Shown here piece by piece: positions 5,890-33,479 of a stretch of DNA of 34,377 bases. This stretch comes from Polaromonas sp. (lineage in GTDB: Bacteria > Pseudomonadota > Gammaproteobacteria > Burkholderiales > Burkholderiaceae_C). The stretch is taken from assembly GCA_013824015.1 (NCBI GenBank), contig PNNC01000012.1, forward strand, positions 1 through 34,377, given 5' to 3'. A program made the position numbers and the translations under genes. Each line of letters begins with the position of its first letter. The first letter of the stretch is position 1. The notes beneath the pieces are model-generated. The model made no database searches. It was not told the DNA's origin and saw only the letters and a program-made list of their open reading frames with translations.

Positions 5890-6967
5890 GCCCGCCCCCC
5901 TGGTCGCCACGCCGGCCCTGGTGAAAAAAATCGACTGGCTGGCCAAGTTCAGGCACATGCTGCAGGTGATGGCCTTTGCGCTGGCGATTGCCACCCTGCA
6001 GTACGCCTTCACGCCGGACAGGCCCTATGGCCCGCCGCTGGTGTATTCGCTGTTCATCGCCACCATCACCTGGGCCGTCATCGACCTCGGGCGTGAACTG
6101 TTTCCTTCCAGCGCCGAGACCGGCTGGCCCCAGGGCTGGGCCGCACTGGTACTGGTGCTGGGCGCCATTGTGTTGGGTTACGTGGGCGGCACCCGCATCG
6201 CCGACACGCTCTGCCAGTACTACGGCTGGTACCCGCCGGGCGCCGGCCACCAGGATCCGGCCCAGTTGCGCAACTCCATCCTGATCACCGCGATCGCCGG
6301 CATCGTCGGCAGCTTCTACTTCTACGCGGTCAACAAAAGCGCCTACCTGCAGCGCAAGATGCTGGAGGCGCGCCAGCATGCCAGCGAAGCGCGCCTGAAG
6401 CTGCTGGAGACCCAGCTCGAACCACACATGCTGTTCAACACCCTGGCCAACCTGCGCGCCCTGATCGGCAGCGACCCGCAGCGCGCCCAGGTCATGCTGG
6501 ACCACATGATTGCCTACCTGCGCGCCACGCTGGGCGCCTCGCTGCAGGCCACACACACGCTGCAGGCCGAGTTCGACCGCGTGCGCGACTACCTCGAGCT
6601 GATGGCCATCCGCATGGGCCCGCGGCTGAGTTATTCGCTGGACCTGCCCGAGGCGCTGGCGCAGCACCCGGTGCCCACGCTGCTGCTGCAGCCGCTGGTG
6701 GAAAACAGCATCAAACACGGGCTGGAGCCCAAGGTCGCCGGCGGACACATCGCGGTCAGCGCGCGCCGCGAGGGCCCACACATCGTGCTCGATGTCAGCG
6801 ACACCGGCGTCGGCCTGTCCGGGACAGACAGCGAACGCACCGGCTTCGGCATGGCGCAGGTGCGGGAGCGGCTGGCGAGCAGCCACGGCGCCGAAAGCGC
6901 TATCGAATTGGTAGCTATCGCCTCAGGCGGGACAAGGGCCAGCGCCCGATTTCCGTATCAATCATGA
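5879..6967 (+). CDS. LytS/AlgZ-type sensor histidine kinase
   Basis: 362 residues. The N-terminal half holds about four transmembrane segments (residues 28-42, 52-70, 87-105, 133-152) with no large periplasmic domain. The His_kinase domain shows TQLEPHMLFNTLANL with the phosphoacceptor His183, followed by a GHKL ATPase with the N box VENSIKHGLEP and the G1 motif DTGVGLSG. This is the AlgZ/LytS class, which pairs with LytTR regulators. It overlaps the regulator gene by ATGA at 6964-6967. Oddity: the last residues (SAIELVAIASGGTRASARF) are encoded by a copy of the 54-bp dispersed palindromic repeat at 6899-6952. Confidence 0.92.
   Translation: MRPEPAPLVATPALVKKIDWLAKFRHMLQVMAFALAIATLQYAFTPDRPYGPPLVYSLFIATITWAVIDLGRELFPSSAETGWPQGWAALVLVLGAIVLGYVGGTRIADTLCQYYGWYPPGAGHQDPAQLRNSILITAIAGIVGSFYFYAVNKSAYLQRKMLEARQHASEARLKLLETQLEPHMLFNTLANLRALIGSDPQRAQVMLDHMIAYLRATLGASLQATHTLQAEFDRVRDYLELMAIRMGPRLSYSLDLPEALAQHPVPTLLLQPLVENSIKHGLEPKVAGGHIAVSARREGPHIVLDVSDTGVGLSGTDSERTGFGMAQVRERLASSHGAESAIELVAIASGGTRASARFPYQS
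6899..6952 (+). repeat. 54-bp palindromic repeat, copy C1, inside lytS-like gene
   Basis: Aligns without gaps to five other copies in the window. It starts GCTATCGAATTGG, then TAGCT, a degenerate left arm, CAAGGGC as right arm, and ends CCGATTT. It encodes the C-terminal tail of the kinase in frame. The palindrome is eroded compared with copies C3 and C6. Confidence 0.75.
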
Positions 6968-7788
6968 GCACCGGCCAGCCCGCCACCGCGCTGATCGCCG
7001 AGGACGAACCGCTGCTCGCGCAGGCGCTGCAGGCCGAGCTGGCGCGCGCCTGGCCGGCGCTGCAGGTGCTGGCCAGCGTCGGTGACGGCGCATCGGCGGT
7101 GACGCAGGCGCTGGCGCTGCGGCCTGATGTGCTGTTTTTCGACATCCGCATGCCCGGTCTGGGCGGCCTGGAGGCGGCGGCCGAGCTGGCCGACGCGTGG
7201 CCGGCGGGCAGCGCCTTTCCGGCGCTGGTGTTTGTCACCGCCTACGACCAGTACGCGGTGCAGGCTTTCGAGGCCCAGGCGGTGGACTACCTGCTCAAAC
7301 CGGTGCAGCCCGCGCGCCTGCAAAAAACAGTGTCAAAACTGCAGCTGACCCTTGCCGGACGTGGGCTGACAGCTATCAATTCGGTAGCAGACACCAGCCC
7401 CGGCCTGGACCAGGCGCTGGACCAGTTGCGGCATTTGCTGGCCGCCGGGCAGTCACCTGCCAGCCCCCTGAAGGTGATCCAGGCCAGCGTCGGCAGCAGC
7501 ATCCGCATGGTGCCGGTGGCCGAGGTGCTGTATTTCGAGGCGGCCGACAAATACATCCGCGTGCTGACCGCCAGCCACGAGTACCTGATACGCACACCGC
7601 TGAAGGAACTGCTGCCCCAGCTCGATCCGCAGCGCTTCTGGCAGATTCACCGCGGCACCGTGGTGCAGGCCGAGGCCGTCGACAGCGTGCACCGCGACGA
7701 GGCCGGCAAGCTCACGCTGAGCCTGCGTGGCCGCCCGGAAAAACTCGCGGTCAGTCGGCTGTACAGTCAGCAGTTCCGGGCGATGTAG
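6964..7788 (+). CDS. LytTR-family response regulator (AlgR/LytR type)
   Basis: 274 residues. The receiver domain (about 8-120) has acidic Glu13/Asp14, phosphoacceptor Asp60 in FFDIRMPG, Thr92 in FVTAYD and Lys112 in LLKPV. The LytTR DNA-binding domain (about 170-272) has KVIQASVGSSIRMVPVAEVLYFEA, DKYIRVLT and FWQIHRGTVV. It starts on the ATGA overlap with the kinase, so the two are translationally coupled. The linker (KLQLTLAGRGLTAINSVAD) is encoded by a reverse-oriented copy of the 54-bp repeat at 7335-7388. Targets are unknown; the genes upstream in the same operon are natural candidates. Confidence 0.93.
   Translation: MSTGQPATALIAEDEPLLAQALQAELARAWPALQVLASVGDGASAVTQALALRPDVLFFDIRMPGLGGLEAAAELADAWPAGSAFPALVFVTAYDQYAVQAFEAQAVDYLLKPVQPARLQKTVSKLQLTLAGRGLTAINSVADTSPGLDQALDQLRHLLAAGQSPASPLKVIQASVGSSIRMVPVAEVLYFEAADKYIRVLTASHEYLIRTPLKELLPQLDPQRFWQIHRGTVVQAEAVDSVHRDEAGKLTLSLRGRPEKLAVSRLYSQQFRAM
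7335..7388 (-). repeat. 54-bp palindromic repeat, copy C2, inside lytR-like gene
   Basis: On the minus strand it reads GCTACCGAATTGA, TAGCTG, GCCCACG, tccgg, CAAGGGT and ends CAGTTTT. It is closest to copy C1 in the neighbouring gene. It encodes, in frame, the linker between receiver and LytTR domains. Confidence 0.8.
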
Positions 7789-7806
7789 CCCCTTCTTCAC
7801 GATGCC

Positions 7807-8418
7807 ATGACCGACACCGCCACCCCTGCGTCCATCCTCGACTTCTGGCTCGGCGAAGGCTTCGAATCAGGCTGGCCCGGCCGCGACATGGGCAAACAGT
7901 GGTTTGGCGGAACGCCCGAGCTGGACCGGCAGATCGCCGACCGTTTCGGCGCGGCCGTGCGGCAGGCGCTGGACGGCGGCCTGGGCGCCTGGGAAGCCGA
8001 CCCGCTGGAGCGGCTGGCGCTGGTGATCCTGCTCGACCAGTTTCCGCGCAACATCCATCGCGGCCAGGCCCGGGCCTTTGCCGGCGATGCGCGCGCCCAG
8101 CAACTGGTGCGTGACGCGCTGGCGCAGGGCATGGACGACCAGCTGCCCTGGGTCGGCCGCATGTTCCTCTACATGCCGCTGATGCACGCCGAGGACCTGC
8201 CGCTGCAGGAAGAAGGCGTGCGGCGCTTTCGCCAGCTGGCCGCAGATGCGCCCGAAAACCTGCGCGTGACGCTGACCAGCAGCCTGCGGTTTGCCGAACA
8301 GCACCGCGACATCATTGCCCGCCTGGGCCGCTTCCCCTACCGCAACAACGCGCTGGGGCGCACCAGCACCGCGCTGGAATTCGAGTTCCTGAAAACGGGC
8401 CCGCGCTTCGGCCAGTAG
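7807..8418 (+). CDS. DUF924 family protein
   Basis: 203 residues, normal for the DUF924 family, a helical TPR-like fold of unknown function. Signature stretches are ILDFWLGEGF at the start, QWFGGTPELDRQIADRFG, LALVILLDQFPRNIHRG and MFLYMPLMHAEDLPLQE, ending with RFPYRNNALGR. The ATG at 7807 is 18 bases after the regulator stop, with no strong ribosome site, so it may be the last cistron of the run that begins at 1261. No signal peptide is visible, so it is probably cytoplasmic. Confidence 0.9.
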   Translation: MTDTATPASILDFWLGEGFESGWPGRDMGKQWFGGTPELDRQIADRFGAAVRQALDGGLGAWEADPLERLALVILLDQFPRNIHRGQARAFAGDARAQQLVRDALAQGMDDQLPWVGRMFLYMPLMHAEDLPLQEEGVRRFRQLAADAPENLRVTLTSSLRFAEQHRDIIARLGRFPYRNNALGRTSTALEFEFLKTGPRFGQ

Positions 8419-8623
8419 GCGCGCAGCGCCGGCCGCGCGCACACCTGACGCCCGCTGGCGGCCCGGTCCGCTTACACAAAGTTTCGTCTGGCCTGAATCC
8501 GCGGCCCTGCGGCCGTGCGTACCCCTGACAGGCGCCAGTGCAGGGTTTGCGTAAAAGCCGTTGCACGGGACGTCAACAACAACTGGCAGCCGCCAGCCCC
8601 TCTCACTTCACCAGGAGTTACCC

Positions 8624-9175
8624 ATGATGATCCGTACCGCCATCGCCACTGCCGCTGTTTCGCTGATCGCCGCCTGCGGCAGCATGTCGCCCATGAAGCC
8701 TGTCTACTCGCAGGCCGGCTTGCCCGCCGCCGTGCAGGTGCCTGCCGGCAACAAGGTCGCCCTGGAAACCGTCGGTGTCGGCGAGATCACCTACCAGTGC
8801 AGCGCCAAAAAGGACATGGCCGGCCAGTACGAATGGGTGTTTGTCGGTCCCGACGCCAGGCTGCTTGACCGCAGCGGCAAGCAGGTTGGCAAGTACTACG
8901 GCCCGCCCGCGACCTGGGAAGCCATGGATGGCTCCAAACTGACCGCCGTGCAACTCGCGGTGGCCCCCAACACCGGCATGGCTGGCAGCATCCCGCTGCA
9001 GCTCGTCAAGGGCAACCCGGCCATGGGCTCGGGCGCGATGCAGGGCGTGACCTACATCCAGCGCGTGGACACCCGGGGTGGCGTCGCCCCGGCGATGCCC
9101 TGCGCCGCCGGCAACCTGAACGCCAAACAGATCGTCAAGTACCAGGCCGACTACATCTTCTACAAGGCCATGTAA
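8624..9175 (+). CDS. DUF3455 lipoprotein, tandem copy 1
   Basis: 183 residues from the ATG at 8624, with AGGAG at 8613-8617. A second ATG at 8627 is possible. The signal sequence ends in the lipobox IAAC (SLIAACGSM), so the protein is probably a lipid-anchored periplasmic or outer-membrane protein. The mature part has the DUF3455 pattern: VPAGNKVALETVGVGEITYQC, then WVFVGPDARLLDRSGKQVGKYYGPPATWEAMDGS, then GVTYIQRVDTRGG and a C-terminal YQADYIFYKAM. Function is unknown. It is the first of four related genes in a row, each with its own spacer and terminator-like hairpins, so they are probably separate transcription units. Confidence 0.88.
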   Translation: MMIRTAIATAAVSLIAACGSMSPMKPVYSQAGLPAAVQVPAGNKVALETVGVGEITYQCSAKKDMAGQYEWVFVGPDARLLDRSGKQVGKYYGPPATWEAMDGSKLTAVQLAVAPNTGMAGSIPLQLVKGNPAMGSGAMQGVTYIQRVDTRGGVAPAMPCAAGNLNAKQIVKYQADYIFYKAM

Positions 9176-9228
9176 GCCCTGCAGATTGATTCTCCGGGAA
9201 GCTCGCTTTCTGTCCAGATGGTGAGCGG

Positions 9229-9292
9229 CCAGCCTTGCGTCATGCAGGGCTGGTTTTAGCCCACAGGCCGCATGCGGCCTGTGGGCTTTTTT
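9229..9292 (+). terminator. Double hairpin terminator after DUF3455 copy 1
   Basis: A first hairpin, CCAGCC (9229-9234) with GGCTGG (9248-9253), is followed by TTTT. Immediately after, a perfect 30-bp palindrome runs from AGCCCACAGGCCGCA (9258-9272) to its complement (9273-9287) and is followed by a T run to 9292. This is a strong Rho-independent terminator. Confidence 0.9.
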
Positions 9293-9361
9293 GCGCCTGC
9301 CGCCACGCTGGCGCGGCCCCGTGACGAAGCGCTGTTGCCTTGCAGCACGCCGGTCGGGCGT

Positions 9362-9400
9362 CCTACAACCGCTTACATCATTCGCGGCTCTACTGGCATC
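9362..9400 (+). promoter_or_regulatory. Shared upstream block (CCTAC, 24 bases, TACTGGCATC) before DUF3455 copy 2
   Basis: CCTAC at 9362-9366 and TACTGGCATC at 9391-9400 are repeated with exactly the same spacing upstream of the decayed copy at 10076-10114. The TACTGG part sits about 30 bases before the start codon and could be a -10-like element, with CCTAC upstream as an activator or alternative sigma site. The factor is unknown. Confidence 0.45.
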
Positions 9401-9426
9401 TGGCAACAACACATCGGGGAAAACAC

Positions 9427-10005
9427 ATGAGAAGCATCAACACACAAGCCCGCACCGCCGGCAAAAGCCTGCTCTGCACCACGCTGATGGTCGGCGGCAC
9501 TGCCCTGATCATGGCGGCCTGTTCCAGTGCCCCGCCGCTGCCCAAGGTCTACACCCAGGACCGCCTGCCCCAGGCGGTGATGGTCCCGGCCGGCAACACC
9601 GTGGCGCTGGAAACACGCGCCACCGGCATCCTGAATTACGAATGCAAACCCACCGCCACCGGCCCTTACGGCTGGGTGCTGGTGAGCCCGCAGGCCAACC
9701 TGCTGGACCGCACCGGCAAGGACGTGGTGGCCTATTCCGGCCCACCGGCCACCTTCAAGCACGTCGACGGCTCCAGCGTCATCGGCACGCAGATCGCGGT
9801 CGCGCCCAACGGCGAATACACCCTGCCGCTGCAACTGTCCACCGCCCAGTCCACGGGCAGCGGCGCCTTGCAGGGCATCAGCTACATCCAGCGCGTCAAC
9901 ACCAAGGGCGGCATTGAAAAAACCAAACCCTGCGCCGCGCTGAACACCGGCGAGAAGCTGACCCTGCCTTACCAGGCCGACTACATCTTCTGGCGCCAGG
10001 GCTGA
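9427..10005 (+). CDS. DUF3455 lipoprotein, tandem copy 2
   Basis: 192 residues. The start at 9427 follows a GGGGAAAACAC ribosome-like site. The signal sequence ends with the lipobox MAAC (ALIMAACSSAPP). The domain mirrors copy 1: VPAGNTVALETRATGILNYEC, YGWVLVSPQANLLDRTGKDV, YSGPPATFKHVDGSSVIG, GISYIQRVNTKGG, and the end YQADYIFWRQG. The paired cysteines (YEC and PCAA) are kept, suggesting a periplasmic disulphide. Function is unknown. The upstream block with CCTAC and TACTG suggests regulation shared with the next gene. Confidence 0.88.
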   Translation: MRSINTQARTAGKSLLCTTLMVGGTALIMAACSSAPPLPKVYTQDRLPQAVMVPAGNTVALETRATGILNYECKPTATGPYGWVLVSPQANLLDRTGKDVVAYSGPPATFKHVDGSSVIGTQIAVAPNGEYTLPLQLSTAQSTGSGALQGISYIQRVNTKGGIEKTKPCAALNTGEKLTLPYQADYIFWRQG

Positions 10006-10035
10006 GCCCCTCAGGGCTAACCCGCGGATAGAAAA

Positions 10036-10073
10036 GCTGCCCACGATACACACCTGCAGTGCTTGTGGGCAGC
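10036..10073. terminator. Hairpin after DUF3455 copy 2
   Basis: GCTGCCCAC (10036-10044) and GTGGGCAGC (10065-10073) form a perfect 9-bp stem with a 20-base loop. There is no T run, so it may be a weak terminator, an mRNA-end structure or a protein-binding palindrome. It ends three bases before the CCTAC promoter block. Confidence 0.5.
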
Positions 10074-10075
10074 CT

Positions 10076-10114
10076 CCTACACCGGCTGGGCGCCCGATCG
10101 GTTTTACTGTCATC
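10076..10114 (+). promoter_or_regulatory. Shared upstream block (CCTAC, 24 bases, TACTGTCATC) before decayed DUF3455 copy
   Basis: The second instance of the block seen at 9362-9400, with identical spacing between CCTAC (10076-10080) and TACTGTCATC (10105-10114). Outside these two elements the intervening bases differ, which suggests selection on the elements rather than a recent duplication of the whole spacer. Confidence 0.45.
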
Positions 10115-10154
10115 ACAGAGAAAAGCAGAACGCAGAATGAAAGGGGTGAGGGCC

Positions 10155-10607
10155 ATGAAAAGCACACACAACACAATTCGCGCATTGGCCATCGGCCTGG
10201 TGCTGACCCTGCTGCTCGTGACCGGCACGGCCGCCATGATGGCTGCTTTCTCCACCACACCGCCCGCGACCGACATCTACCGCCGCGTCGCCCTCACACC
10301 CCTCTCCGAACCGGCCACCTACATGGCCACTGGCCATGACAGCGTTTTGTATGAACGTGTGGTGCTGGCGGACGGCCGCGTGCAATGGGTGCTGATCGAC
10401 GAGCCTGGCGTTTCCGTGGCCACCCTGGCCCGGGGCCAGGCCGGCGTCGATGTGGCAAACAACAACACGCCATCGATTTATTCGGGCGCGGCCAGAACCG
10501 TCAGCTACACGCTGGTGGTCAAGCCCGCCGGCCTGAGCAAGCCGCTTAAAAATTGCAATCGTTCGGCTTACGGCGCTTACGACATTGCATGCACCACCTT
10601 GAGCTGA
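10155..10607 (+). CDS. Degenerate DUF3455-like protein that lost its lipobox cysteine (tandem copy 3)
   Basis: 150 residues from the ATG at 10155, with GGGGTGAGG just upstream; an ATG at 10137 in the same frame is an alternative. A membrane or signal segment (ALAIGLVLTLLLVTGTAAMM) leads into MAAFSTTPP, which lines up with MAACSSAPP of copy 2 with the lipid-modified cysteine replaced by Phe. QWVLIDEPGVSVATLARG aligns with YGWVLVSPQANLLDRTGK, and TPSIYSGAARTVSYTLVV with the central part. The GISYIQR and QADYIFW ends are missing. I read it as a diverging or decaying paralogue, likely membrane-anchored by an uncleaved helix. The homology is by eye and could be wrong. Confidence 0.6.
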   Translation: MKSTHNTIRALAIGLVLTLLLVTGTAAMMAAFSTTPPATDIYRRVALTPLSEPATYMATGHDSVLYERVVLADGRVQWVLIDEPGVSVATLARGQAGVDVANNNTPSIYSGAARTVSYTLVVKPAGLSKPLKNCNRSAYGAYDIACTTLS

Positions 10608-10706
10608 TTGATTCGAAAGTAATCATTAGCGACGATGTTCCAGTTTCCGCCACGCCGCTTGAAACGGTGTGTCCGGCGCCAGCGCTGTTCAGCAGCAATG
10701 GCAACC

Positions 10707-10740
10707 AGTCCGCAGGTTCAAGCCTGCGGACTTTCTTTAT
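10707..10740 (+). terminator. Rho-independent terminator after copy 3
   Basis: AGTCCGCAGG (10707-10716) pairs perfectly with CCTGCGGACT (10723-10732) around a six-base loop, followed by TTCTTTAT. It separates copy 3 from copy 4. Confidence 0.9.
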
Positions 10741-10818
10741 GGGCTTGCTTGTCTTAGCATCGGGCGTCGCCGACACGCTGACGGGACAACAGTCTGGGCC
10801 ACATCACCGGGAAATCCT

Positions 10819-11406
10819 TTGAACACTCACACTGCCACACGCTCCCGCACCCCCCGCCTGCACAGCCTCGTGCTGGCAGCCAGCGCCGTTTTCCTGATGG
10901 CCGGCTGTTCGGCGCCGCGACCGCTGGCCGAGTACCTGACCCGGCAACCGACGCTGCCCGGTGACATCCGTGTGCCGGCCGGCCACCAGGCGGTGCTCGA
11001 AGCCCGCGGCAGCGGCCAGCTCCAGTACGAATGCCAGGCCACCAGCCGCTCACCGTGGCAGTACGCCTGGCTGCCGATGGACCGCAGCATCGAGCTGCGC
11101 GACAGTTCCAACAACAGCATCACGCTGGCCCGCAGCGCGCGCAGCTGGGTGCACCGCGACGGCTCCGAACTGGCGGTGCGCGAGTTTGTCGAGGTGGACA
11201 ACGGCGCGCCCAACCTGCCGCTGCAGCGCGCACGCGTCGAGCCGGCCAACCTGCCGGGCACGCTCAACAACATCAGCTACATCCAGCGCATCCGCACCCT
11301 GGGCGGCCTGCCGTCCACACGCAACTGCAGCTCGGCCGAACTCGGCATGCGGGTCAGCGTGCCCTACGAGGCCGACTACGTGTTCTGGCGCCAGCTCAGT
11401 TCCTGA
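10819..11406 (+). CDS. DUF3455 lipoprotein, tandem copy 4
   Basis: 195 residues from a TTG start at 10819, with GGGAAA ending a few bases upstream. This start puts the Arg-containing n-region (NTHTATRSRTPRLH) directly before the hydrophobic stretch LVLAASAVFLMAGC, whose MAGC is a good lipobox. A longer frame from 10669 would run through the terminator and is not credible. The domain features are VPAGHQAVLEARGSGQLQYEC, WLPMDRSIELRDSSNNS, WVHRDGSELAV, NISYIQRIRTLGG and YEADYVFWRQLSS. It is more diverged than copies 1 and 2. Function is unknown. Confidence 0.82.
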   Translation: MNTHTATRSRTPRLHSLVLAASAVFLMAGCSAPRPLAEYLTRQPTLPGDIRVPAGHQAVLEARGSGQLQYECQATSRSPWQYAWLPMDRSIELRDSSNNSITLARSARSWVHRDGSELAVREFVEVDNGAPNLPLQRARVEPANLPGTLNNISYIQRIRTLGGLPSTRNCSSAELGMRVSVPYEADYVFWRQLSS

Positions 11407-11422
11407 AGCGCAGTTCCCCATG

Positions 11423-11458: not shown

Positions 11459-11497
11459 GCGGGGCGATGGTCACCCCGATGCGGTCACGCGTCCGGC

Positions 11498-12058: not shown

Positions 12059-13840
12059 ATGACCTCCCCCGCCGACAAAGACATTCACAAACCCAGCAAT
12101 TTCCTGCGCCAGATCATCGAACACGACCTGGCCAAAGGCACGTATTCGGGGCGGCAATGGGGCGGCAGCCCCGGCGACGCCGCCCACCACGCGGGCGGCC
12201 AGCCCGATCCGGCCAAAGTCCGCCTGCGCTTTCCGCCCGAACCCAATGGCTACCTGCACGTCGGCCACGCCAAAAGCATCTGCCTGAACTTTGGCCTGGC
12301 ACGCGACTACCAGGGTGTCTGCCACCTGCGTTTTGACGACACCAACCCGGAAAAGGAAGACACCGAATACGTCAACGCGATCAAGGACGCGGTCCAGTGG
12401 CTGGGCTTCGACTGGCACAACAACGGCGAGAACAACCTGTACCAGGCCAGCGACTACTTCGACTTCATGTACCGCGCCGCCGAGTACCTGATCGAATCGG
12501 GCAACGCCTATGTGGACGAACAAAGCGCCGACGAGATGCGCATCAATCGCGGCGATTTCGTCAAGCCCGGTGTCAACAGCCCCTTCCGCAGCCGACCGGT
12601 TGCCGAGAACCTGGCGCGCTTCCGCGAAATGCGCGATGGCAAATTGGCCGACGGCGCGGCCGTGTTGCGCGCCAAAATCGACATGGCCTCGCCCAACATC
12701 AACCTGCGCGACCCGGCGATCTACCGCATCCGCCGCGCGCACCACCACAACACCGGCGACAAATGGTGCATCTACCCGATGTACACCTATGCGCACCCGA
12801 TCGAGGACGCGCTCGAACAAATCACCCACAGCATCTGCACACTCGAGTTCGAGGACCAGCGCCCGTTTTACGACTGGCTGCTCGACAAACTGGCGGAAGG
12901 CCAACTGATCGCCAGCCCGCACCCGCGCCAGTACGAATTTGCGCGCCTGAACCTGACCTATGTGCTGACCAGCAAACGCAAGCTGGCCCAGCTCGTCAAC
13001 GAAAAACGCGTCAGCGGCTGGGACGACCCGCGCATGCCCACCATCGTCGGCCTGCGCCGGCGCGGCTACACACCCGAAGCGATTCATCTGTTTGCCGAAC
13101 GTATCGGCGTGACCAAAAGCGACAGCTGGATCGACTACAGCACGCTCGAAGGCGCACTGCGCGACACGCTGGACCCGATCGCCCCGCGCGCCATGGCCGT
13201 GCTGGACCCGGTCAAACTCGTGCTGACGAACTGGGACGAAGTGATGGGCGCAGGCAAGCTCGACGACTGCAGCGCCCCGGTGCACCCGCACCACCCCGAG
13301 CAGGGCAAACGCGAATTCAAGATCGGCAAGGAAGTCTGGATTGAACGCACCGACTACGAAGAAACACCGCCCAAGGGCTTCTTCCGCCTGTTCCCGGGCA
13401 ACAAGGTGCGCCTGAAATACGGCCACGTGATCGAATGCACCGGCGCCAGCAAAGACGCGAACGGCCAAGTCACCGAAGTGCAAGCGAAGTTGATCCCCGA
13501 CACCAAAAGCGGCACGCCGGGCTCCGACGCCGTCAAGGTCAAAGGCGTGATCACCTGGGTCGGCGTCAACGACGCGGTGCAGGCCGAAGTGCGCCTCTAC
13601 GACCGCCTGTTCACCGAAGCGCACCCCGAAGCGGACGGAAAAGATTTTCTGGAGAACCTGAACCCGAACAGCCTGAGCGTTGTCACGGCTTATGTGGAGC
13701 CGTCACTGGCCGGTGTGGCCGCCGGTCAACGCTTCCAGTTCGAGCGGCATGGCTACTTTGTCACTGACTTGAAGGATCACGCATCGGGGAAAGTCGTGTT
13801 CAATCGGGTGACGGGGATGAAAGATTCCTGGGCCAAGTAG
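12059..13840 (+). CDS. glnS: Glutamine--tRNA ligase
   Basis: A 593-residue class I aminoacyl-tRNA synthetase that attaches glutamine to tRNA-Gln in the cytoplasm. The HIGH-type motif is PPEPNGYLHVGHAKS (HVGH at 67-70) and the KMSKS-type loop appears as VLTSKRKL near residue 303. The beta-barrel anticodon-binding part ends with RFQFERHGYFVTDL and FNRVTGMKDSWAK. An insert of about 20 residues (GGSPGDAAHHAGGQPDPAK) precedes the HIGH region, a variant I remember from Comamonadaceae enzymes. The ATG at 12059 directly precedes TSPADKDIHKPSNFLRQII. The last 120 bp exist a second time at 14504-14623, marking the 3' end as a recombination or integration point. Confidence 0.97.
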   Translation: MTSPADKDIHKPSNFLRQIIEHDLAKGTYSGRQWGGSPGDAAHHAGGQPDPAKVRLRFPPEPNGYLHVGHAKSICLNFGLARDYQGVCHLRFDDTNPEKEDTEYVNAIKDAVQWLGFDWHNNGENNLYQASDYFDFMYRAAEYLIESGNAYVDEQSADEMRINRGDFVKPGVNSPFRSRPVAENLARFREMRDGKLADGAAVLRAKIDMASPNINLRDPAIYRIRRAHHHNTGDKWCIYPMYTYAHPIEDALEQITHSICTLEFEDQRPFYDWLLDKLAEGQLIASPHPRQYEFARLNLTYVLTSKRKLAQLVNEKRVSGWDDPRMPTIVGLRRRGYTPEAIHLFAERIGVTKSDSWIDYSTLEGALRDTLDPIAPRAMAVLDPVKLVLTNWDEVMGAGKLDDCSAPVHPHHPEQGKREFKIGKEVWIERTDYEETPPKGFFRLFPGNKVRLKYGHVIECTGASKDANGQVTEVQAKLIPDTKSGTPGSDAVKVKGVITWVGVNDAVQAEVRLYDRLFTEAHPEADGKDFLENLNPNSLSVVTAYVEPSLAGVAAGQRFQFERHGYFVTDLKDHASGKVVFNRVTGMKDSWAK

Positions 13841-14485: not shown

Positions 14486-14623
14486 GGACTGGCCAGGGTC
14501 GATGCCGGCCAGCGCTTCCAGTTCGAGCGGCATGGGTACTTTGTCACTGACTTGAAGGATTACGCTGCGAGGAAAGCGGTGTTCAATCGAGTTGCAGGAA
14601 TGAAAGATTCCTGGGGAAAATAA
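14486..14623 (+). pseudogene. glnS (fragment): Duplicated 3' fragment of glnS
   Basis: Bases 14504-14623 align without gaps to the last 120 bp of glnS (13721-13840), with 18 mismatches by hand count (85% identity), and end in an in-frame TAA. The encoded end AGQRFQFERHGYFVTDLKDY, then FNRVAGMKDSWGK, is a sound GlnS C-terminus, and weaker similarity extends back to about 14486. No start codon or upstream glnS body is present, so it is a remnant. The changes are partly synonymous, so this is a diverged homologue, not a fresh duplication. Confidence 0.92.
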
Positions 14624-17705: not shown

Positions 17706-17712
17706 GCAGATT

Positions 17713-18591
17713 GTGTCTTCTTCTGATTTGACGCGCCTGTGCCCTGCGTTGTCGCGCCGCAGGGCAGTGCTGGGTGCACTGGGCCTGCTGGCCCTGCCCG
17801 GCGCAGGTGGGGCCGCCACGCCCTCCGATGTTGCCACGGTGTGGCCGCGTGCGTCGCAGGTGCCGGGCGGTGTGGCGCGGCTGCCGCTAGGCCCGTCGGC
17901 GCAGCGGCCGGTGGCGCACCAGGGCGAGCTTCCATTGCTGGTGGTGGGCGACCAAATCGCCTGGACGGCGATTGTCGGCATCCCGCTGGCGGCGGCGCCG
18001 GGTGATGCCGCGATCACGGTGCAGACGACCGAAGGCGGGCCGCGGCAGCTCAGCTACAGCATCGCGCCCAAACGTTACAGCGAACAACAACTGAAGGTGT
18101 CGCCGCGCACGGTGGACCTGTCGCCGGAAGACCTCGCGCGATACGAGCGCGAGCGTGCGCACCAGGAGACCGTGATGGCAACCTTCAGCCAGCCGCTGCC
18201 GGCGTCGCTGCGCATGCGCGTGCCGGTGCCGGGGCGCAAGTCCAGCTCGTTCGGGCTGCGCCGCGTGTTCAACGGCCAGGCGCGCAATCCGCACAGCGGC
18301 ATGGACATCGCGGCCGCCACCGGCACGCCGGTGGTGGCGCCGCTTCCGGGCCGCGTGATCGACGTGGGCGACTATTTCTTCAACGGCGGCACGGTCTGGC
18401 TGGACCACGGCGGTGGCCTGCTCAGCATGTACTGCCACCTGAGCGCGATGGACGCGCAGACGGGTGATGTGTTGCCCGCAGGCGCGCGCCTCGGGGCCGT
18501 GGGCGCCACCGGCCGGGTGACCGGCCCGCATTTGCACTGGGGCGTGATGCTGAACCGCAGCATGGTGGATCCGGCGCTGTTTCTCGCCTGA
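17713..18591 (+). CDS. M23-family peptidoglycan metallopeptidase
   Basis: 292 residues from a GTG at 17713. SRRRAVLGALGLLALPGAGGAA is a Tat- or Sec-type signal. A middle domain (about 60-130) is followed by the LytM/M23 catalytic domain with zinc ligands His194 and Asp198 (NPHSGMD) and His275 in GPHLHWGV, with His273 as the general base. FGLRRVFNGQARNPH is also typical. All catalytic residues are present, so it is likely an active periplasmic endopeptidase cutting peptide cross-links. The ribosome site is weak and the start is seven bases after the previous stop, suggesting coupling. A 54-bp palindromic repeat begins nine bases after the stop. Confidence 0.92.
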   Translation: MSSSDLTRLCPALSRRRAVLGALGLLALPGAGGAATPSDVATVWPRASQVPGGVARLPLGPSAQRPVAHQGELPLLVVGDQIAWTAIVGIPLAAAPGDAAITVQTTEGGPRQLSYSIAPKRYSEQQLKVSPRTVDLSPEDLARYERERAHQETVMATFSQPLPASLRMRVPVPGRKSSSFGLRRVFNGQARNPHSGMDIAAATGTPVVAPLPGRVIDVGDYFFNGGTVWLDHGGGLLSMYCHLSAMDAQTGDVLPAGARLGAVGATGRVTGPHLHWGVMLNRSMVDPALFLA

Positions 18592-18600
18592 TTTCAAGCC

Positions 18601-18654
18601 AAATCGGCCTCCAGCCCATGTCCTGCATGGGCTTCCAGCTATCAAAATTGCAGC
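18601..18654 (-). repeat. 54-bp palindromic repeat, copy C3 (intergenic)
   Basis: On the minus strand it reads GCTGCAATTTTGA, TAGCTG, gaa, GCCCATG, cagga, CATGGGC, six bases, CCGATTT. The 7-bp stem is perfect, making this one of the two best-preserved copies. It lies between the M23 peptidase and the nucleotidyltransferase gene. Confidence 0.85.
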
Positions 18655-18715
18655 ACACCATCAGCCGGAAGGCAGAGCCGCCTGCTGCTACGCGTCACTT
18701 TCAGCTTGGTAAAAA

Positions 18716-18749
18716 ACCCTAATCGGGTATGATCGAACCCATTATGGGT
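18716..18749. promoter_or_regulatory. Two phased palindromic operators at the start of the HTH-nucleotidyltransferase gene
   Basis: ACCC-TAATC-GGGT (18716-18728) and ACCC-ATTAT-GGGT (18737-18749) are 13-bp palindromes whose starts lie 21 bp apart, two helical turns. They cover both candidate start codons (18729 and 18744). This is the arrangement expected for autorepression by the winged-helix domain of the protein encoded here. Confidence 0.65.
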
Positions 18750-19358
18750 ATAACTCCTCCAGATGCAGGCAGCACGCGTATTGCCGACGCCCTGTTCCCC
18801 AAGGGGCGCCAGCGTGTACTGGCGGTACTGTTTGGCAACCCCGAGCGCAGCTTTTATGCAAATGAATTGATCGCTTTGGCGCAGTCGGGCACCGGCTCGG
18901 TACAGCGCGAACTGGCGGCCCTGTCGGATGCAGGTTTGCTGACGGTCAGCAAACAGGGCAACCAGAAGCACTACCAGGCCAATACGGCGGCGCCGGTGTT
19001 TGCCGAGTTGCGCGGCCTGGTCATGAAGACCTCGGGCCTGGCTGATGTGTTGCGCACGGCACTGGCACCACTGGCGCCGCAGATCGTATGCGCCTTTGTC
19101 TACGGATCGGTCGCCAAACAAAGCGACACCGCGCACAGCGATATCGACGTGATGGTGATCAGCGCGGACCTCGGCTACGCCGACGTGTTCGGCGCGCTGG
19201 AAGCTGCCACCCGGTCGCTGGGGCGCAAGGTCAATCCCACGCTGTACACACCCGCAGACCTGACCAAACGCATCACGCAGGACAACGCCTTTGTCACGCG
19301 TGTGCTGCAACAACCGAAGATCTGGCTGATCGGCAGCGAGGAGAAGCTTGGTGGCTGA
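18744..19358 (+). CDS. Winged-HTH plus MNT nucleotidyltransferase (antitoxin-like)
   Basis: 204 residues from the ATG at 18744; an ATG at 18729 adds five residues. Neither has a ribosome site, so the mRNA may be leaderless. Residues about 15-85 form an ArsR-like winged helix (VLAVLFGNPERSFYANELI, GTGSVQRELAALSDAGLL). The minimal nucleotidyltransferase motif follows: Gly121-Ser122, ten residues, Asp133-Ile-Asp135 (YGSVAKQSDTAHSDIDVMV). In MNT/HEPN pairs the nucleotidyltransferase modifies and silences the HEPN toxin. The fused HTH may provide autorepression through the two palindromes at its start. The 3' end overlaps the HEPN gene by eight bases. Confidence 0.85.
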   Translation: MGITPPDAGSTRIADALFPKGRQRVLAVLFGNPERSFYANELIALAQSGTGSVQRELAALSDAGLLTVSKQGNQKHYQANTAAPVFAELRGLVMKTSGLADVLRTALAPLAPQIVCAFVYGSVAKQSDTAHSDIDVMVISADLGYADVFGALEAATRSLGRKVNPTLYTPADLTKRITQDNAFVTRVLQQPKIWLIGSEEKLGG

Positions 19359-19755
19359 ACTGGACAACTTGTGCGGCCCCGGCAAACCGCTTAAAGCCGA
19401 AGCACCCGACGCCAGCGAGATCGCCGGCTTGGCGCGCACCGGCGCCGCGCGGCTGGCCGACGCCCGCAACACCACGCTGGCGCTGGAAAGCCGCTTCGAC
19501 CTGGCCTACAACGCGGCGCATGCCCTGTGCCTGGCTGCCTTGCGGCGCGCGGGCTATCGCCCCGCCAACCGCTATATCGTGTTCCAGCTGCTGCCGCATA
19601 CGCTGGGATTGGGGCCCGAGGTGTGGCGGGTTCTGGACAAATGCCACAACACGCGCAACCTCGGCGAGTACGAAGGCCTGCTCGACGTCGATGAACGTCT
19701 GGTCACCGACCTGATTGCCGCGACGCAGGCCGTGGCGGACGCGCTGCAGCGCTGA
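19351..19755 (+). CDS. HEPN-domain protein (HepT-like toxin)
   Basis: 134 residues from a GTG at 19351, preceded by GAGGAGAAG; a TTG at 19348 is possible. It is helical, with LALESRFDLAYNAAHALCLAALRRAGYRP and the HEPN ribonuclease signature Arg93-x5-His99 (RVLDKCH) followed by NTRNLGEYEG. HEPN proteins of this kind are RNases or tRNA-targeting toxins held in check by an MNT partner, here the gene directly upstream and overlapping it. The intact Rx5H motif suggests it is active. Confidence 0.85.
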   Translation: MAELDNLCGPGKPLKAEAPDASEIAGLARTGAARLADARNTTLALESRFDLAYNAAHALCLAALRRAGYRPANRYIVFQLLPHTLGLGPEVWRVLDKCHNTRNLGEYEGLLDVDERLVTDLIAATQAVADALQR

Positions 19756-20411: not shown

Positions 20412-20429
20412 GCCTGCGGTTTGACAATA

Positions 20430-20483
20430 AAAAGTGGCGTCAGCCCATGTCGGGCGGTCGTCACCAGCTATTAAAACAATAGC
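20430..20483 (-). repeat. 54-bp palindromic repeat, copy C4 (intergenic)
   Basis: On the minus strand it reads GCTATTGTTTTAA, TAGCTG, gtg, a mutated left arm, cccga, CATGGGC, six bases, CACTTTT. The left arm has lost complementarity. It sits between the convergent phasin-like and multi-PAS kinase genes. Confidence 0.75.
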
Positions 20484-20553
20484 AATCGGGAGGTGAGTGG
20501 CGGTTCACACTGGCCACCTCACCGGCCCCCGGCCCACTGGCCGCCCGCCGTGA

Positions 20554-28362: not shown

Positions 28363-28457
28363 GGGCGTAAGGGCTGGGTCTCTGGGAGTCAGGCGCCAAG
28401 TGTAGCCCCCAGTGATTACCCTGCGCCGGAGCGGCGGGCTAGCCGGACCGCCATGGC

Positions 28458-28862: not shown

Positions 28863-28961
28863 GTCTGTGCTCCATCAGTGGGGCCACGCGACCCCGGGTT
28901 AAAGATGAAGTCACTTTAGGCCGCACGGTCTGCCGGATAAACAGGCAAGCCCACCCATCAC

Positions 28962-28980
28962 TGTTTGTAAAATCCAAACA
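28962..28980. promoter_or_regulatory. LysR-type dyad between ridA-like and lysR-like genes
   Basis: TGTTTG (28962-28967) and CAAACA (28975-28980) form a perfect inverted repeat with a seven-base spacer, containing a T-N11-A pattern. It lies 22 bases before the LysR start in the divergent spacer, the usual position of a LysR autoregulatory site. Confidence 0.65.
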
Positions 28981-29002
28981 ATCATCACCGTCGGGAGTTT
29001 CG

Positions 29003-29926: not shown

Positions 29927-30008
29927 ACAGGGCGGCGGCATACCCCCTTGGTTAGATTCTTTGCTCAACGCTCGACAATTGCATATTGCCGATAGCCAGC
30001 CCAACTGC

Positions 30009-31127
30009 TCAGGCGCTGAGCACCAGCTCAAACGCTCCCAAGCCCTGCGCCTGCCCATTCAACAACACCTCCACCCGATGTTTGCCCGCATGGTGTTTGC
30101 GCGTCGTCATTTCGGCAGTGGACACCGTCTTGCTCAGCCGCACGGTTTCCTTCGGCGCCAGGTCCAGCACCTTGAGCTTGAACACCTTGGCGCTGCTTTT
30201 GCCGCTGGCCTTCACATAGTGGATACAGAAGTCCACCAGCACGCGTTGCGGCCTGCTGCTGGTGTTGGTGATGGCAAACGCGATGTTGACCTTTTCACCC
30301 ATCACGACCCGCTTGGGCGTGATCCTGGCGCCACTGACTTCAACCTCTGCGCTTTTGCCGAAGCCCAGAACTTCCAACGCACCAGCCTCGCCGCGCTTGA
30401 CGGCGGAGCGCAGCGCGTGCTGGACGATCCAGCGGCGCTCGTCGCTGGCGCCCTTGAGCCATTTCTTCGCCGTGGCGGCCAGCACATCGGGGTGGTCCTT
30501 GCCGATGTCGTTGAGGTTGTTGGCGACGGAGCGGCGCACGTACAAGGCCGGGTCGTCCCTGAGCAGCTCCAGCAGTTCCAGCACCGGCGCCGGGTTTTTC
30601 TGGAAGGCCGGCAGGCGGCTGGCCCAGGGCAGGCGCGGGCGGCTGCCTTCGGACACCAGGCGGCGCACATGTTCGCTCGGGTCGCTGGCCCACTGCCTGA
30701 AACGCGCCAGCGTGGCGGCTTCGTGGTGCTGAAAAAAAGCGCGGATGCTGAACTCGGCGGTGAAGCGTTGCGTCAGCGCATGTTGCGCGCGCATCGATTC
30801 TTCAAAGTGATCGAGCCCGACCTCCGCGACAAACAGGGTGTGCGGCAGATACAGGAAAGAGCCAAGGGTCAGCCCCGGATCGCGGCCATGCGGCTGGTCC
30901 AGCGAGGCCAGCAGGATGGCGATCGCTGTCGGGTAGTCGGGCGGCAGGTGCCGCTGCAGGGCGCGGGCCATGTGTTTGCCGCGTGGCATCAGCGCCAGTT
31001 CGTCATACCCCTTGAGTGCGTCGGCAACAAACTTGCGCGCCTCGAAGGCCGGAAACACCGCGCTGATCATGCGCGCAATCGCTTGGGGCACGTCGGCGCC
31101 ATATTGATTGACCAGCGGTTCTGCCAC
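30009..31127 (-). CDS. DNA alkylation repair glycosylase, AlkC-like
   Basis: 372 residues with HEAT-like helical repeats and a C-terminal beta domain. HVRRLVSEGSRPRLPWASRLP near residue 155 and YVRRSVANNLNDIGKDHP near 197 are hallmark stretches of the AlkC/AlkD family, which removes alkylated bases such as 3-methyladenine. The C-terminal 110 residues (VNIAFAITNTSSRPQRVLVDFCIHYVKA) look like the immunoglobulin-like domain that distinguishes AlkC from AlkD. The start is a GTG at 31127, four bases after the waaA stop, with its AAGGA ribosome site inside the end of waaA, so it is probably translated from the same mRNA as the LPS genes. Confidence 0.88.
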   Translation of the reverse strand: MAEPLVNQYGADVPQAIARMISAVFPAFEARKFVADALKGYDELALMPRGKHMARALQRHLPPDYPTAIAILLASLDQPHGRDPGLTLGSFLYLPHTLFVAEVGLDHFEESMRAQHALTQRFTAEFSIRAFFQHHEAATLARFRQWASDPSEHVRRLVSEGSRPRLPWASRLPAFQKNPAPVLELLELLRDDPALYVRRSVANNLNDIGKDHPDVLAATAKKWLKGASDERRWIVQHALRSAVKRGEAGALEVLGFGKSAEVEVSGARITPKRVVMGEKVNIAFAITNTSSRPQRVLVDFCIHYVKASGKSSAKVFKLKVLDLAPKETVRLSKTVSTAEMTTRKHHAGKHRVEVLLNGQAQGLGAFELVLSA

Positions 31128-31131
31128 AGTG

Positions 31132-32439
31132 TCAGTCCTTCAGGAATTGCGCCAGCGCCTGCACCGTGTTGGCGGCGGCGCCGCGGTGCTGCGCGGCAAA
31201 GGCCAGGCTGGCTTGCGCCGCCGCCTGCTGCGTGGACGGCCGCGCCAGCATGGCGCGCGCGCTGCGCACGGCTTCGTCCATGTCGCTCACACGCCGCGCC
31301 GCGCCCGCGGCTTCCGCCAGTTCCGACACCTCGGCAAAGTTGAAGGTGTGCGGGCCCATGATGACGGGGCAGCCGCAGGCGGCGGCCTCGATCAGGTTCT
31401 GCCCACCCAGCGGCGCAAAACTCCCGCCCAGCAGGGCCACGTCGCTCATCGCGTAATACAGCGCCATCTCGCCGAGCGAGTCACCGAGCCAGACATCGGC
31501 GGCCTGCGGCGCGCCATTCCAGGCCGAGCGGCGCGCCACCGACAAACCGTGTTTTTCGATCAGCGCCTGGACCTCGTCGAAACGCTGCGGGTGCCGCGGC
31601 ACGATGAGGATTTGCACGGCTGCACCTGCTATGGTATTGATAGCTGGATGCCCATGTTCTGAAAGGGCCAGCGCCACAATATGCTTGAGAAACTCGTCTT
31701 CCTCGGCCTCGCGGGAACTGGCCAGCATCAGCACCGGCTGGCCCAGCGCCTGGCGCCAGGCACGGCCCTGGGCCTGCTGTGCCGCGTCCGGCGTGGCGTC
31801 GAACTTGAGGTTGCCGAACACAGCTTCCACCCTCGCGCCGAGCATGCGCAGGCGCTGCGCGTCGCTCTCGCTTTGCGCGTACACCGCCGCCAGGCCGGCA
31901 TAGGCCGGCCGCGACAGCGGCGCCATGCGCAGCGCCTGCTGCAGCGACTTGTCGGACAGGCGTGCGTTGACCAGCACCATTGGCACGCCGCGCGCTTGCG
32001 CGCAGGCCACGGTGTTGGGCCAGACTTCCGTCTCCAGCAGCAGGCCCAGGCGCGGCTTGAAGTGGGCGAAGAAACGCGCGACCGCGGCCTCGCTGTCCCA
32101 GGGCTGCCACACCTGCACATCGCCATCGCGCAACAGGCTGGCGCCCTCGGCGCGACCGGTGGCCGTGCCATGCGTCAGCAACACGCGCAGGCCGGGCCAC
32201 TTCTCGCGCAGCGCGGCCAGCAGGATGCCGGCGGTGCGGGTTTCGCCGAGCGACACCGCGTGCACCCAGACCAGCTCGGCGCGCGGTTCCGCCGGGTGGG
32301 TGTAGAAGCCGAAACGTTCCTCCACCGCCTCGAGGTAACCGGCCTCGGCCTGGCCGCGGCGCCGCAGCTTGCGCCGCAGAAAGGGCTGGGCGGCCCACAT
32401 CAGCAGCGAATACAGCGTGCGGATCAGGTGGTCCATCAT
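31132..32439 (-). CDS. waaA: 3-deoxy-D-manno-octulosonic acid (Kdo) transferase
   Basis: 435 residues. WaaA adds Kdo to lipid A precursor at the inner membrane. The N-terminal anchor IRTLYSLLMWAAQPFLRRKL is followed by the GT30 features VWVHAVSLGETRTA, LLTHGTATGRAEG, LLLETEVWPNTVA, FGNLKFD, IVPRHPQRFDEV, and GGSFAPLGGQNLIEAAACGCPVIMGPHTFNF. I chose the ATG at 32439, which overlaps the waaC stop by ATGA. A loop between two core elements (IVALALSEHGHPAINTIAG) is encoded by a copy of the 54-bp repeat and seems longer than the E. coli loop as I remember it. Confidence 0.94.
   Translation of the reverse strand: MMDHLIRTLYSLLMWAAQPFLRRKLRRRGQAEAGYLEAVEERFGFYTHPAEPRAELVWVHAVSLGETRTAGILLAALREKWPGLRVLLTHGTATGRAEGASLLRDGDVQVWQPWDSEAAVARFFAHFKPRLGLLLETEVWPNTVACAQARGVPMVLVNARLSDKSLQQALRMAPLSRPAYAGLAAVYAQSESDAQRLRMLGARVEAVFGNLKFDATPDAAQQAQGRAWRQALGQPVLMLASSREAEEDEFLKHIVALALSEHGHPAINTIAGAAVQILIVPRHPQRFDEVQALIEKHGLSVARRSAWNGAPQAADVWLGDSLGEMALYYAMSDVALLGGSFAPLGGQNLIEAAACGCPVIMGPHTFNFAEVSELAEAAGAARRVSDMDEAVRSARAMLARPSTQQAAAQASLAFAAQHRGAAANTVQALAQFLKD
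31628..31681 (+). repeat. 54-bp palindromic repeat, copy C5, inside waaA
   Basis: Reads GCTATGGTATTGA, TAGCTG, gat, GCCCATG, ttctg, AAAGGGC, six bases, CACAATA. The gene runs on the other strand, so the repeat is translated in antisense orientation, encoding a loop before IVPRHPQRF. Confidence 0.8.
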
Positions 32440-33479
32440 GGCAGCGGCTGCCATTCGGAGATCACCGCCGGCGGCTGGCAACTGAGCCAGGCATCCCACA
32501 CCTGGCCGACTGAAGGCGCGGGCTGCGCGAACACACTGCGCTGGCGGGCGCCCTCGCCGGCTGTGGCAGCTGGCAGCGGCCCGGTGCGCCAGGCGGTGTC
32601 GAAGTTGTAGATCTGCACATGCGGCAGATCCAGCGCCACCGCGATGTGGCTGAGGCCGCTGTCCACGCCGATGACGCCGGCGCACAACGCGAGTTGCGCT
32701 GTCAGTTCGTCCAGCGCCAGTCTCGGCCACACGACCGCTTTGTCTCCGCCCGTCTTCAAGCCACCGGCAATCGCCTGGCTCATGGCCAGCTCCGCATCGC
32801 TGCCATGCGGCAGCGCGATCAGGTAACCGTGGGCGTTGAGTTGCCGGCCCAGCGCGACCCAGTTTTCCAGCGGCCAGAGTTTGTCGGCGCGTGAACTGCC
32901 ATGCACAAACGCTATCATTTCAGGAGCTGCCTGCCCATGTCCGGCATGGGCCAACACACGATTTAGCCCATAATCCGGGCGCGCTGCCGGGGTGTAGCCG
33001 AGCGCACGCGCAGCCAGCGCGCGCCCGCGCGACACGGCGTGGCTGTGCGGCGGCAGCGTGATCGCCACATCGGCGACCCAGCGTGTGGGCGCCTCGTAGC
33101 CCGAGCCCTCGGTCTGGTTGGCCATCGCGTAACGCTGGCCGCCGGGCGCCAGCCGCGCCAGCCAGGCCACCAGCGCCGACTTGCTCAAACCCTGCAGGTC
33201 AATCACCGCGTCATACGCCTGGCTTTGCAGCTCACGCCGGAAAGCGCGCCAGGCGCTGCGTGTGGCCGCGCTGAACGGCGACTTGCGCCAGCGCCGCAGC
33301 TCGCAGCCGATGACACGCTGCAGGCCCTTGCCCAACAGCGGGCTCAGCAGCGGCGCAAAGGCTTTTTCGACCACCCAGTCGATCTGCGCGCCGGGATGCG
33401 CAGCCAGGATGTCCTGCACCACGGGCAGCGTGTGCACCACGTCGCCCAGCGACGAGAGTTTGACGATCAGTATTTTCAC
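32436..33479 (-). CDS. waaC: Lipopolysaccharide heptosyltransferase I
   Basis: 347 residues, GT9 family. WaaC adds the first heptose to Kdo2-lipid A. Features are KILIVKLSSLGDVVHTLPVV at the start, IDWVVEKAFAPLL, YDAVIDLQGLSKSALVAWLA, GSSRADKLWPLENWVALG, and ALCAGVIGVDSGLSHIAVALDLPHVQIYN. The GTG at 33479 fits the family start. A frame open to 33680 reads through the REP at 33538 and is not used. The segment NRVLAHAGHGQAAPEMIAF, a loop before the GSSRADKLWP motif, comes from repeat copy C6. The order algC, waaC, waaA, alkC suggests one envelope-biogenesis transcript. Confidence 0.94.
   Translation of the reverse strand: MKILIVKLSSLGDVVHTLPVVQDILAAHPGAQIDWVVEKAFAPLLSPLLGKGLQRVIGCELRRWRKSPFSAATRSAWRAFRRELQSQAYDAVIDLQGLSKSALVAWLARLAPGGQRYAMANQTEGSGYEAPTRWVADVAITLPPHSHAVSRGRALAARALGYTPAARPDYGLNRVLAHAGHGQAAPEMIAFVHGSSRADKLWPLENWVALGRQLNAHGYLIALPHGSDAELAMSQAIAGGLKTGGDKAVVWPRLALDELTAQLALCAGVIGVDSGLSHIAVALDLPHVQIYNFDTAWRTGPLPAATAGEGARQRSVFAQPAPSVGQVWDAWLSCQPPAVISEWQPLP
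32911..32964 (+). repeat. 54-bp palindromic repeat, copy C6, inside waaC
   Basis: Reads GCTATCATTTCAG, GAGCTG, cct, GCCCATG, tccgg, CATGGGC, six bases, ACGATTT. The 7-bp stem is perfect, so it is well preserved despite lying in a coding frame. waaC reads it in antisense orientation. Confidence 0.85.

Follow-up and report, generated by a model that had tools for sequence, protein, structure and literature searches.

The window analysed here, i.e., the entire stretch of 34,377 bp of contig PNNC01000012.1 from Polaromonas sp. (assembly GCA_013824015.1), contains six copies of a palindromic element that belongs to a real, genome-wide dispersed family and is not restricted to these six copies. With a probability of roughly 0.6, this family of about 66 nt is regarded here as non-autonomous and similar to the repetitive extragenic palindromic (REP) sequences, having spread in the past within the Comamonadaceae (judged by the named hosts), most likely by means of a REP-associated tyrosine transposase (RAYT) of the TIRYT type.

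The initial annotation had described six segments of the window that align over 54 bp without any gap, and both their coordinates and this alignment were confirmed. In the genome from which the window derives (G000; 3.80 Mb in 234 contigs, 88.8% complete, the window being contig C28), the pattern TAGCTGN3GCCCATGN5CATGGGC is matched 250 times with up to three mismatches, whereas the reversed pattern is not matched at all, such that the supposed excess of the core over chance is borne out by the genome search. An iterated 60-column profile (threshold 8 bits) detects 68 copies, 62 of them outside the window, in a sample of 434,377 bases consisting of twenty 20-kb stretches and the window; the copies of the window score from 49.0 to 67.7 bits, and the same 434 kb, when resampled under a first-order Markov model, reach at most -2.8 bits across the profile rounds. 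The resulting density of one copy per 6.4 kb corresponds to approximately 600 copies in G000, as extrapolated from large contigs. Both orientations occur throughout the family, as had been noted for the window, where the segments beginning at 7335, 18601, and 20430 lie on the minus strand.

Conservation begins at the base (T or C) preceding GCTA and fades near column 64, which gives a unit of about 66 nt with an AAAT-like end. The 54-bp plan first proposed is thus valid for the alignment of the segments, but the unit itself is longer; similarly, the GCCCATG/CATGGGC arm is present, but constitutes only one variant of the family and not its definition. The element is richer in A+T than the genome (G+C of 0.52 versus 0.65), and each genome possesses its own variants, termed dialects in the following. 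Folded as single-stranded DNA, the consensus (with variable positions filled in by hand) is predicted to form two hairpins (-16.6 kcal/mol, z -5.2). A structured RNA was considered and rejected, given stems without covariation beyond that of shuffled alignments, an empty consensus fold from the alignment of the copies, and no Rfam match at gathering score within the window.

Concerning the distribution, the first hairpin, searched with the strict pattern GCTAYN7ATAGCTG, is matched in 89 of 200 genomes of the same bacterial family, with at least ten matches in 54 of the 200, three to nine in another 9, and at most two in 137; the highest count amounts to 435 per genome, whereas the reversed control never exceeds 5 per strand. 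According to a covariance model with strict filters, the element is present in 32 of 36 other members of the genus (four of them with a single match), and 2 of 24 genomes of other families exhibit one marginal match each. Copy number jumps even inside one genus (g96), from 195 copies in G131 to 0 in G237. When named genomes were scanned with a pattern that recognises only a few arm types, 30 stretches were obtained, in Acidovorax (including a genome of Acidovorax facilis), Ramlibacter, Polaromonas, Rhodoferax, Curvibacter, Ottowia, Comamonas, Hylemonella, and Oryzisolibacter, a few of the 30 records being named only to a higher level. Acidovorax and Polaromonas were checked to belong to the Comamonadaceae, in which the other seven genera are also placed. 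The named hosts are hence Comamonadaceae genera, and in other families of the order the element is almost absent.

The candidate mobiliser is a RAYT-type gene. Strong RAYT matches (E <=1e-15, a level that also admits other RAYT types) are found in 46 of the 54 genomes with at least ten copies versus 67 of the 137 with at most two (Fisher test, 3e-6). Fifty loci were scanned for the gene; nine lack this type, L051 and L069 (a distant type) were excluded, and L076, fetched without its RAYT place, did not enter the counts. Directly after the RAYT stop codon, an element in reversed orientation is situated in 15 of 29 repeat-rich loci, representing 14 genera, versus none of 10 repeat-poor loci (genomes with at most 4 copies; Fisher test, 0.006; the profile excluded the genome under test). 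The corresponding controls gave 0 of 29 for the forward orientation, 2 of 29 for the upstream side, and 0 of 18 for the flank after waaA. Furthermore, the flank copy matches the dialect of its own genome best in four of five genomes tested (own versus best other profile: 57.8 versus at most 41.6 bits in G095, 43.3 versus 25.7 in G181, 31.2 versus 24.5 in G132, and 47.1 versus 29.7 in G206), and within genus g96 it is present in G131 and missing in the repeat-free G237. Because a copy adjoins the gene in many related genomes, the RAYT-type gene is the likely source of the repeats.

Most RAYT loci exhibit the HUH and Y---NP motifs together with GGGGWSAS-type flanking motifs, and were assigned to the TIRYTs (RAYT group 1, in the numbering of Bertels 2017 as given in PMC6006769) by motif alone. 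Their flanks contain GGGGTCAGA and GGGGACA motifs, fitting the TIRYT consensus GGGG[AT][CG]A[CG] (PMC6006769), and the reversed flank element mostly ends in GGG(G)ACAnATCAAA, behind which a TCTGACCCC motif is situated. An identity of the dispersed repeat with the terminal motifs of the RAYT unit was also considered and rejected: GGGGTCAGATTCC and GGGGACA[CGT]AT[CT]AA are not matched at all in 434 kb of G000 or in 80 kb from each of five other genomes, and the shorter core GGGGTCAGA occurs once in G000, five times in G095, twice in G132, once in G181, and never in G131 and G206. In G000 and G185, the gene after RAYT encodes, like gltB, a domain of the class-II glutamine amidotransferase type. 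G000 itself possesses a single Y1 transposase match (L041:1429-2157, contig C23; 242 aa), which scores 76.2 bits to the NCBIfam model NF047646 (REP-associated tyrosine transposase), below its cut-off of 80.

Mobilisation would accordingly involve an HUH/Y1 transposase of the TIRYT type, often encoded beside a gltB-like gene and often with a reversed copy of its own dialect in the 3' flank. A single-stranded consensus with two hairpins is the kind of substrate on which such enzymes act, and the transposase would copy the element, the copies settling chiefly downstream of genes and between convergent genes. Copies within genes would have survived where the frame stayed open, and some of them, as in waaA, may have persisted or been acquired anew over long evolutionary periods as a host-encoded peptide; the peptides encoded by the element are probably tolerated rather than useful.

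Concerning placement, genes were called with a simple Viterbi caller (88.1% of bases coding), which placed the LytS copy of the window in a wrong frame. The 68 copies of the G000 sample comprise 37 intergenic ones, 23 within a frame that stays open to either side, and 8 that the caller bridged over a stop and that were counted as intergenic, such that about two thirds are intergenic (12% expected) and about one third are situated in frame within genes. The four reading-frame copies recognised by the initial annotation (LytS-like kinase tail, LytR linker, WaaA, WaaC) agree with the translations, and the two others are indeed intergenic, one overlapping the end of an open reading frame (ORF; Table 1); across the sample, however, most copies are not in genes. 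Of 36 copies in intergenic regions of at least 20 bp, 14 fall into 57 convergent, 18 into 226 unidirectional, and 4 into 56 divergent regions; in the unidirectional regions, most copies are situated close to the 3' end of the upstream gene. The mean score is lower for genic than for intergenic copies (47.8 versus 60.4). All 15 further host ORFs scanned (copies of at least 30 bits) contain Pfam domains, the hosts being P450, CobU, CobD/CbiB, MutS, a glutamyl-tRNA-synthetase-like protein, PutA, the 3-hydroxyisobutyrate dehydrogenase type, an FAD oxidase/Fe-S protein, MetG, an EF-Tu-like GTPase, an alanine-racemase-like protein, a LipB-type protein, DsbD, a PIN protein, and MoeA. The first hairpin is read as A-x-x-x-[IV]-A in 12 of 20 genic copies of at least 30 bits, a count that includes the LytS copy in its wrong frame.

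What the element adds to its hosts differs among them. In WaaA, the segment between SSRxGEE and VPRHPQR was readable in 75 of 79 loci and was scored with six genome profiles, while L155 (from the repeat-free G013), L156, L181, and L183 gave no motif match and were left out. The segment comprises 31-44 residues in the 45 loci with the element; in the 24 loci without it, 17-28 residues are found in 22, and 34 and 49 in the other two. The element is situated at the identical place, strand, and frame across many genera. With the 6 weak scores among the 75 excluded, its presence or absence changes at least 8 times on a rapidly built WaaA tree from which the segment was omitted and in which many forks are weak, which argues for repeated gain or loss. 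In the AlphaFold model (mean pLDDT 90.4), the element residues (approximately 251-270 of 434) are located where a helix ends and in a loop whose residues 263-267 have pLDDT values below 50. WaaC was readable in 37 of the 79 loci, the other 42 lacking a motif match; 27 possess the element (at least 10 bits; 15-27 residues), 8 do not (12-23 residues), and 2 are weak. Because these lengths overlap, no gain in length can be claimed for WaaC, in which the copy is old and common. The LytR linker is derived from the element in close relatives, with length differences of a few residues, and about 10 in one orthologue (L153). In six close relatives, the LytS tail consists of element-like DNA (47-59 bits), but element-free orthologues possess a tail of equal length, and the aligned stretch includes GT-like residues of the ATPase domain, a combination that cannot be explained neatly. 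Compared with solved homologues, the net gain is about +10 residues in CobU, +7 in PutA, and +1 in MutS, from which it follows that element residues often replace native loop residues; in MetG, the element is situated in the linker ahead of the tRNA-binding domain. The initial annotation had envisaged clean insertions of 18 codons; the orthologues without the repeat do not support this as worded, being mostly shorter at the site in WaaA, but differing little or not at all in LytR and LytS and giving no claimable gain in WaaC.

Several observations, in this and the following paragraph, weigh against the transposase as mobiliser. Eight of the 54 repeat-rich genomes are without a strong RAYT-type match, among them G080 (187 strict copies) and G208 (37), both of one genus, for which another mobiliser or gene loss is possible. 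The RAYT flanks of G000 and of 13 other repeat-rich loci do not contain the element, and the G000 gene possesses Y---HP in place of the catalytic Y---NP; with H for the conserved N and no flank element, it may, as far as its sequence indicates, be inactive. The same Y---HP change is seen in L078 and in the RAYT gene of the repeat-free G237. Most flank copies start with GGG(G)ACAnATCAAA and not with GCTATCAAA (L079 excepted), and are therefore not simply dispersed copies. The G131 flank scores 30.8 with its own profile versus 33.5 with that of G000, the spacer containing the flank copy in G131 is as long as the spacer without it in G237 (145 nt each), and one repeat-poor locus (L061) lies just below the cut-off (z 2.9). 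The RAYT locus looks vertically inherited, and the 15 flanks are therefore not independent; since 20 of the fetched regions were chosen largely by copy number, the remainder being best-scoring loci, and since all are related by descent, the tests overstate independence. Part of this would suit an orphan palindromic family, like the CGTC-tagged REPs or the Rickettsia elements, which was spread by another factor, the RAYT-flank copy being one old inherited insertion. A single insertion could be shared in this way because RAYT is followed by the same gltB-like gene start in 21 of the 41 loci, as judged with a strict motif that fails to detect the one in G000. An orphan origin is nevertheless considered rather unlikely, as the flank copy carries its own dialect in four of the five genomes and is absent from all ten repeat-poor loci, one of them borderline.

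The age of the sites likewise weighs against the transposase as mobiliser. Copies within a genome are on average only 54-60% identical (median nearest neighbour 64-74%). In 400 kb of G033 there are 54 copies, and for 33 of them the corresponding site in G026 was identified. The element occupies 31 of the 33 sites in both genomes, the other two are weak matches, and no clear empty site was found among them. In 30 pairs, the element is 85.6% identical, with 93.8% in family-conserved and 79.6% in variable columns, and the adjoining 30 nt are 75.9% identical in an ungapped count sensitive to indels. Sites of the element are static, with a core that looks constrained, to which detection bias may contribute, though most copies score well above the cut-off. 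The genic window copies are common to close relatives and hence old; among the matches listed, their placeable sites in close relatives are filled, except for one odd match in G004, and the two intergenic window copies have no two-flank match there. Between G131 and G237, one site has spacers differing by 67 nt (113 versus 46 nt between matching blocks); three further comparable sites carry other changes, the empty spacer being longer at two and about 24 nt shorter at one, and two further copies were not comparable. No target-site duplication of the kind expected of a miniature inverted-repeat transposable element (MITE) and no excess of flanking direct repeats are found in the 68 copies, and the stem pairs do not covary (73.2% of cells paired versus 72.9% in shuffles). 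No transposition was seen.

Such static sites, the higher identity of conserved columns, old and unequal copies, genomic dialects, and the many core genes among the hosts would all be expected of lineage-specific recognition sites, e.g., DNA uptake sequences, held by selection or drive with one dialect per lineage and with an incidental link to RAYT. In a published study, furthermore, DNA from other species of the genus failed to transform Acidovorax strains, and in Verminephrobacter eiseniae uptake looked sequence-limited (PMC4212676); a genome of A. facilis carries the element. However, the uptake sequences named in that paper measure 9-11 bp, much less than the present unit of about 66 nt with its two hairpins, and the reversed copy at the RAYT 3' flank is left unexplained. 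A few foreign-dialect copies in the G206 sample, as well as the waaA copy of G075, whose score with the G132 profile exceeds that obtained with the profile of its genus-mate G206, argue against concerted drive, and recognition sites of this kind are judged unlikely. A fortuitous resemblance, or regulatory hairpins of an ordinary kind (e.g., terminators) common to a few genes, would agree with the many intergenic copies just after genes and between convergent genes, but is hardly credible given hundreds of copies versus none for the reversed pattern, resamplings below the observed scores, about one third of copies within coding frames, and a consensus hairpin that is not followed by a long T run. 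Past spread by a TIRYT-type transposase stays the preferred interpretation. It might, as a speculation to which only a low probability is attached, be combined with selection: the palindromes would be long lineage-specific marks, renewed in waves by the transposase and selected as chromosome addresses for DNA uptake or other DNA handling, and the genic copies would be a recurrent same-site source of peptides in core enzymes such as WaaA.

Table 1. Copies of the palindromic element in the window and the genes that contain them
Feature	Position	Strand	Remarks
Element copy 1	6898..6963	+	C-terminal tail of LytS-like kinase (AIELVA...FPYQS), abuts lytR start; 49.0 bits, translation; common to close relatives
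Element copy 2	7324..7389	-	In frame in linker of LytR-like regulator (receiver/LytTR); 58.3 bits, translation
Element copy 3	18590..18655	-	Intergenic, convergent ORFs on either side, overlaps end of ORF 18642-19475 (-); 67.7 bits
Element copy 4	20419..20484	-	Intergenic; variant arm ACGACCG, present in further copies; 63.5 bits, alignment
Element copy 5	31627..31692	+	Within waaA, in frame on opposite strand; 52.7 bits, orthologue comparison
Element copy 6	32910..32975	+	Within waaC, in frame on opposite strand; 50.3 bits, orthologue comparison
LytS-like histidine kinase gene (host of copy 1)	5879..6967	+	Pfam His_kinase, HATPase_c
LytR-like response regulator gene (host of copy 2)	6964..7788	+	Pfam Response_reg, LytTR; domains at 10-123 and 179-273
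waaA/kdtA, Kdo transferase gene (host of copy 5)	31132..32436	-	NF004386 472 bits (below cut-off of 524); Pfam PF04413; start codon inferred
waaC/rfaC, heptosyltransferase I gene (host of copy 6)	32436..33479	-	TIGR02193 285.8 bits from ORF residue 69; GTG start inferred

Apart from the palindromic family, the window contains a direct repeat of 135 nt (13705-13839 and 14488-14622, 84% identical) near the end of the glutaminyl-tRNA synthetase gene. Related stretches at 8702-11307 (repeat families D3, D4, and D10) suggest a small run of paralogous genes, and two stretches that are 76-80% alike (2269-2456 and 5624-5817; D8 and D19) apparently represent one domain common to two proteins.

Searches by topic and by short sequence words, mostly outside the subscription literature, yielded no paper evidently dealing with this family. 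The likeness to Rickettsia palindromic elements (RPEs) suggested by the initial annotation holds for the mode of action, since palindromic repeats are translated in frame inside real and unrelated genes, but the copies of the present element are old, shared across species, and often add little length. RPEs are described as measuring about 150 bp, and RPE-4 and RPE-6 are listed among the CGTC repeats (PMC10969869, PMC3733652). BRE, the betaproteobacterial repeat element, is likewise a repeat reported from Polaromonas, Rhodoferax, Acidovorax, and Delftia with some copies within coding sequence, whereas the BREs of Bordetella are 75-91 bp at full length, richer in G+C than the genome, and present in at most 29 copies per genome (PMC3110155). 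The element described here, with its A+T-richness and hundreds of copies, is distinguished from them by description alone. DNA uptake sequences share with the element genome-wide dialects, old sites with a constrained core, and an occurrence in core genes also. They differ from it in that the element is far longer, palindromic, and linked to the RAYT flank.

The closest resemblance in general organization is to the GTAG-tagged REP sequences and their RAYTs, likewise short palindromes in hundreds of copies, mostly intergenic and near gene 3' ends (PMC3733652, PMC6006769), with a linked HUH/Y1 gene flanked by a copy, which applies here to 15 of the 29 repeat-rich loci, but not to that of G000 and 13 others. 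In several species, REPs have been described within genes, and certain TIRs constitute moderately abundant repeated families (PMC3733652). There are nevertheless differences: the element measures about 66 nt, has two hairpins and a TIRYT-type transposase, and its copies are old and diverse; no common tetranucleotide like GTAG or GTGG exists at its 5' edge or just outside its 3' edge, the commonest being found in 6 of 68 copies. Subclass 2.1 of TnpAREP equals RAYT group 1, probably the TIRYTs, with flanking motifs GGGG[AT][CG]A[CG]; neither automatic nor manual searches reported in PMC6006769 revealed REP-like sequences with subclasses 2.1 and 2.3. The element is a candidate cognate repeat for the TIRYT-type transposases, a large RAYT group surveyed there without REP-like repeats. 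It constitutes a testable system in a widespread bacterial group, and provides a number of genes (waaA, waaC, metG, cobU, putA, and others) whose conserved products contain the translated repeat, relatives with and without it being available. In common with the TIRYTs and TIRtrons (RAYT group 1, TnpAREP subclass 2.1), the transposase is flanked by GGGGWSAS-type motifs (PMC6006769, PMC3733652), whereas the dispersed element corresponds to the palindrome inside the 3' end and not to the terminal repeat.

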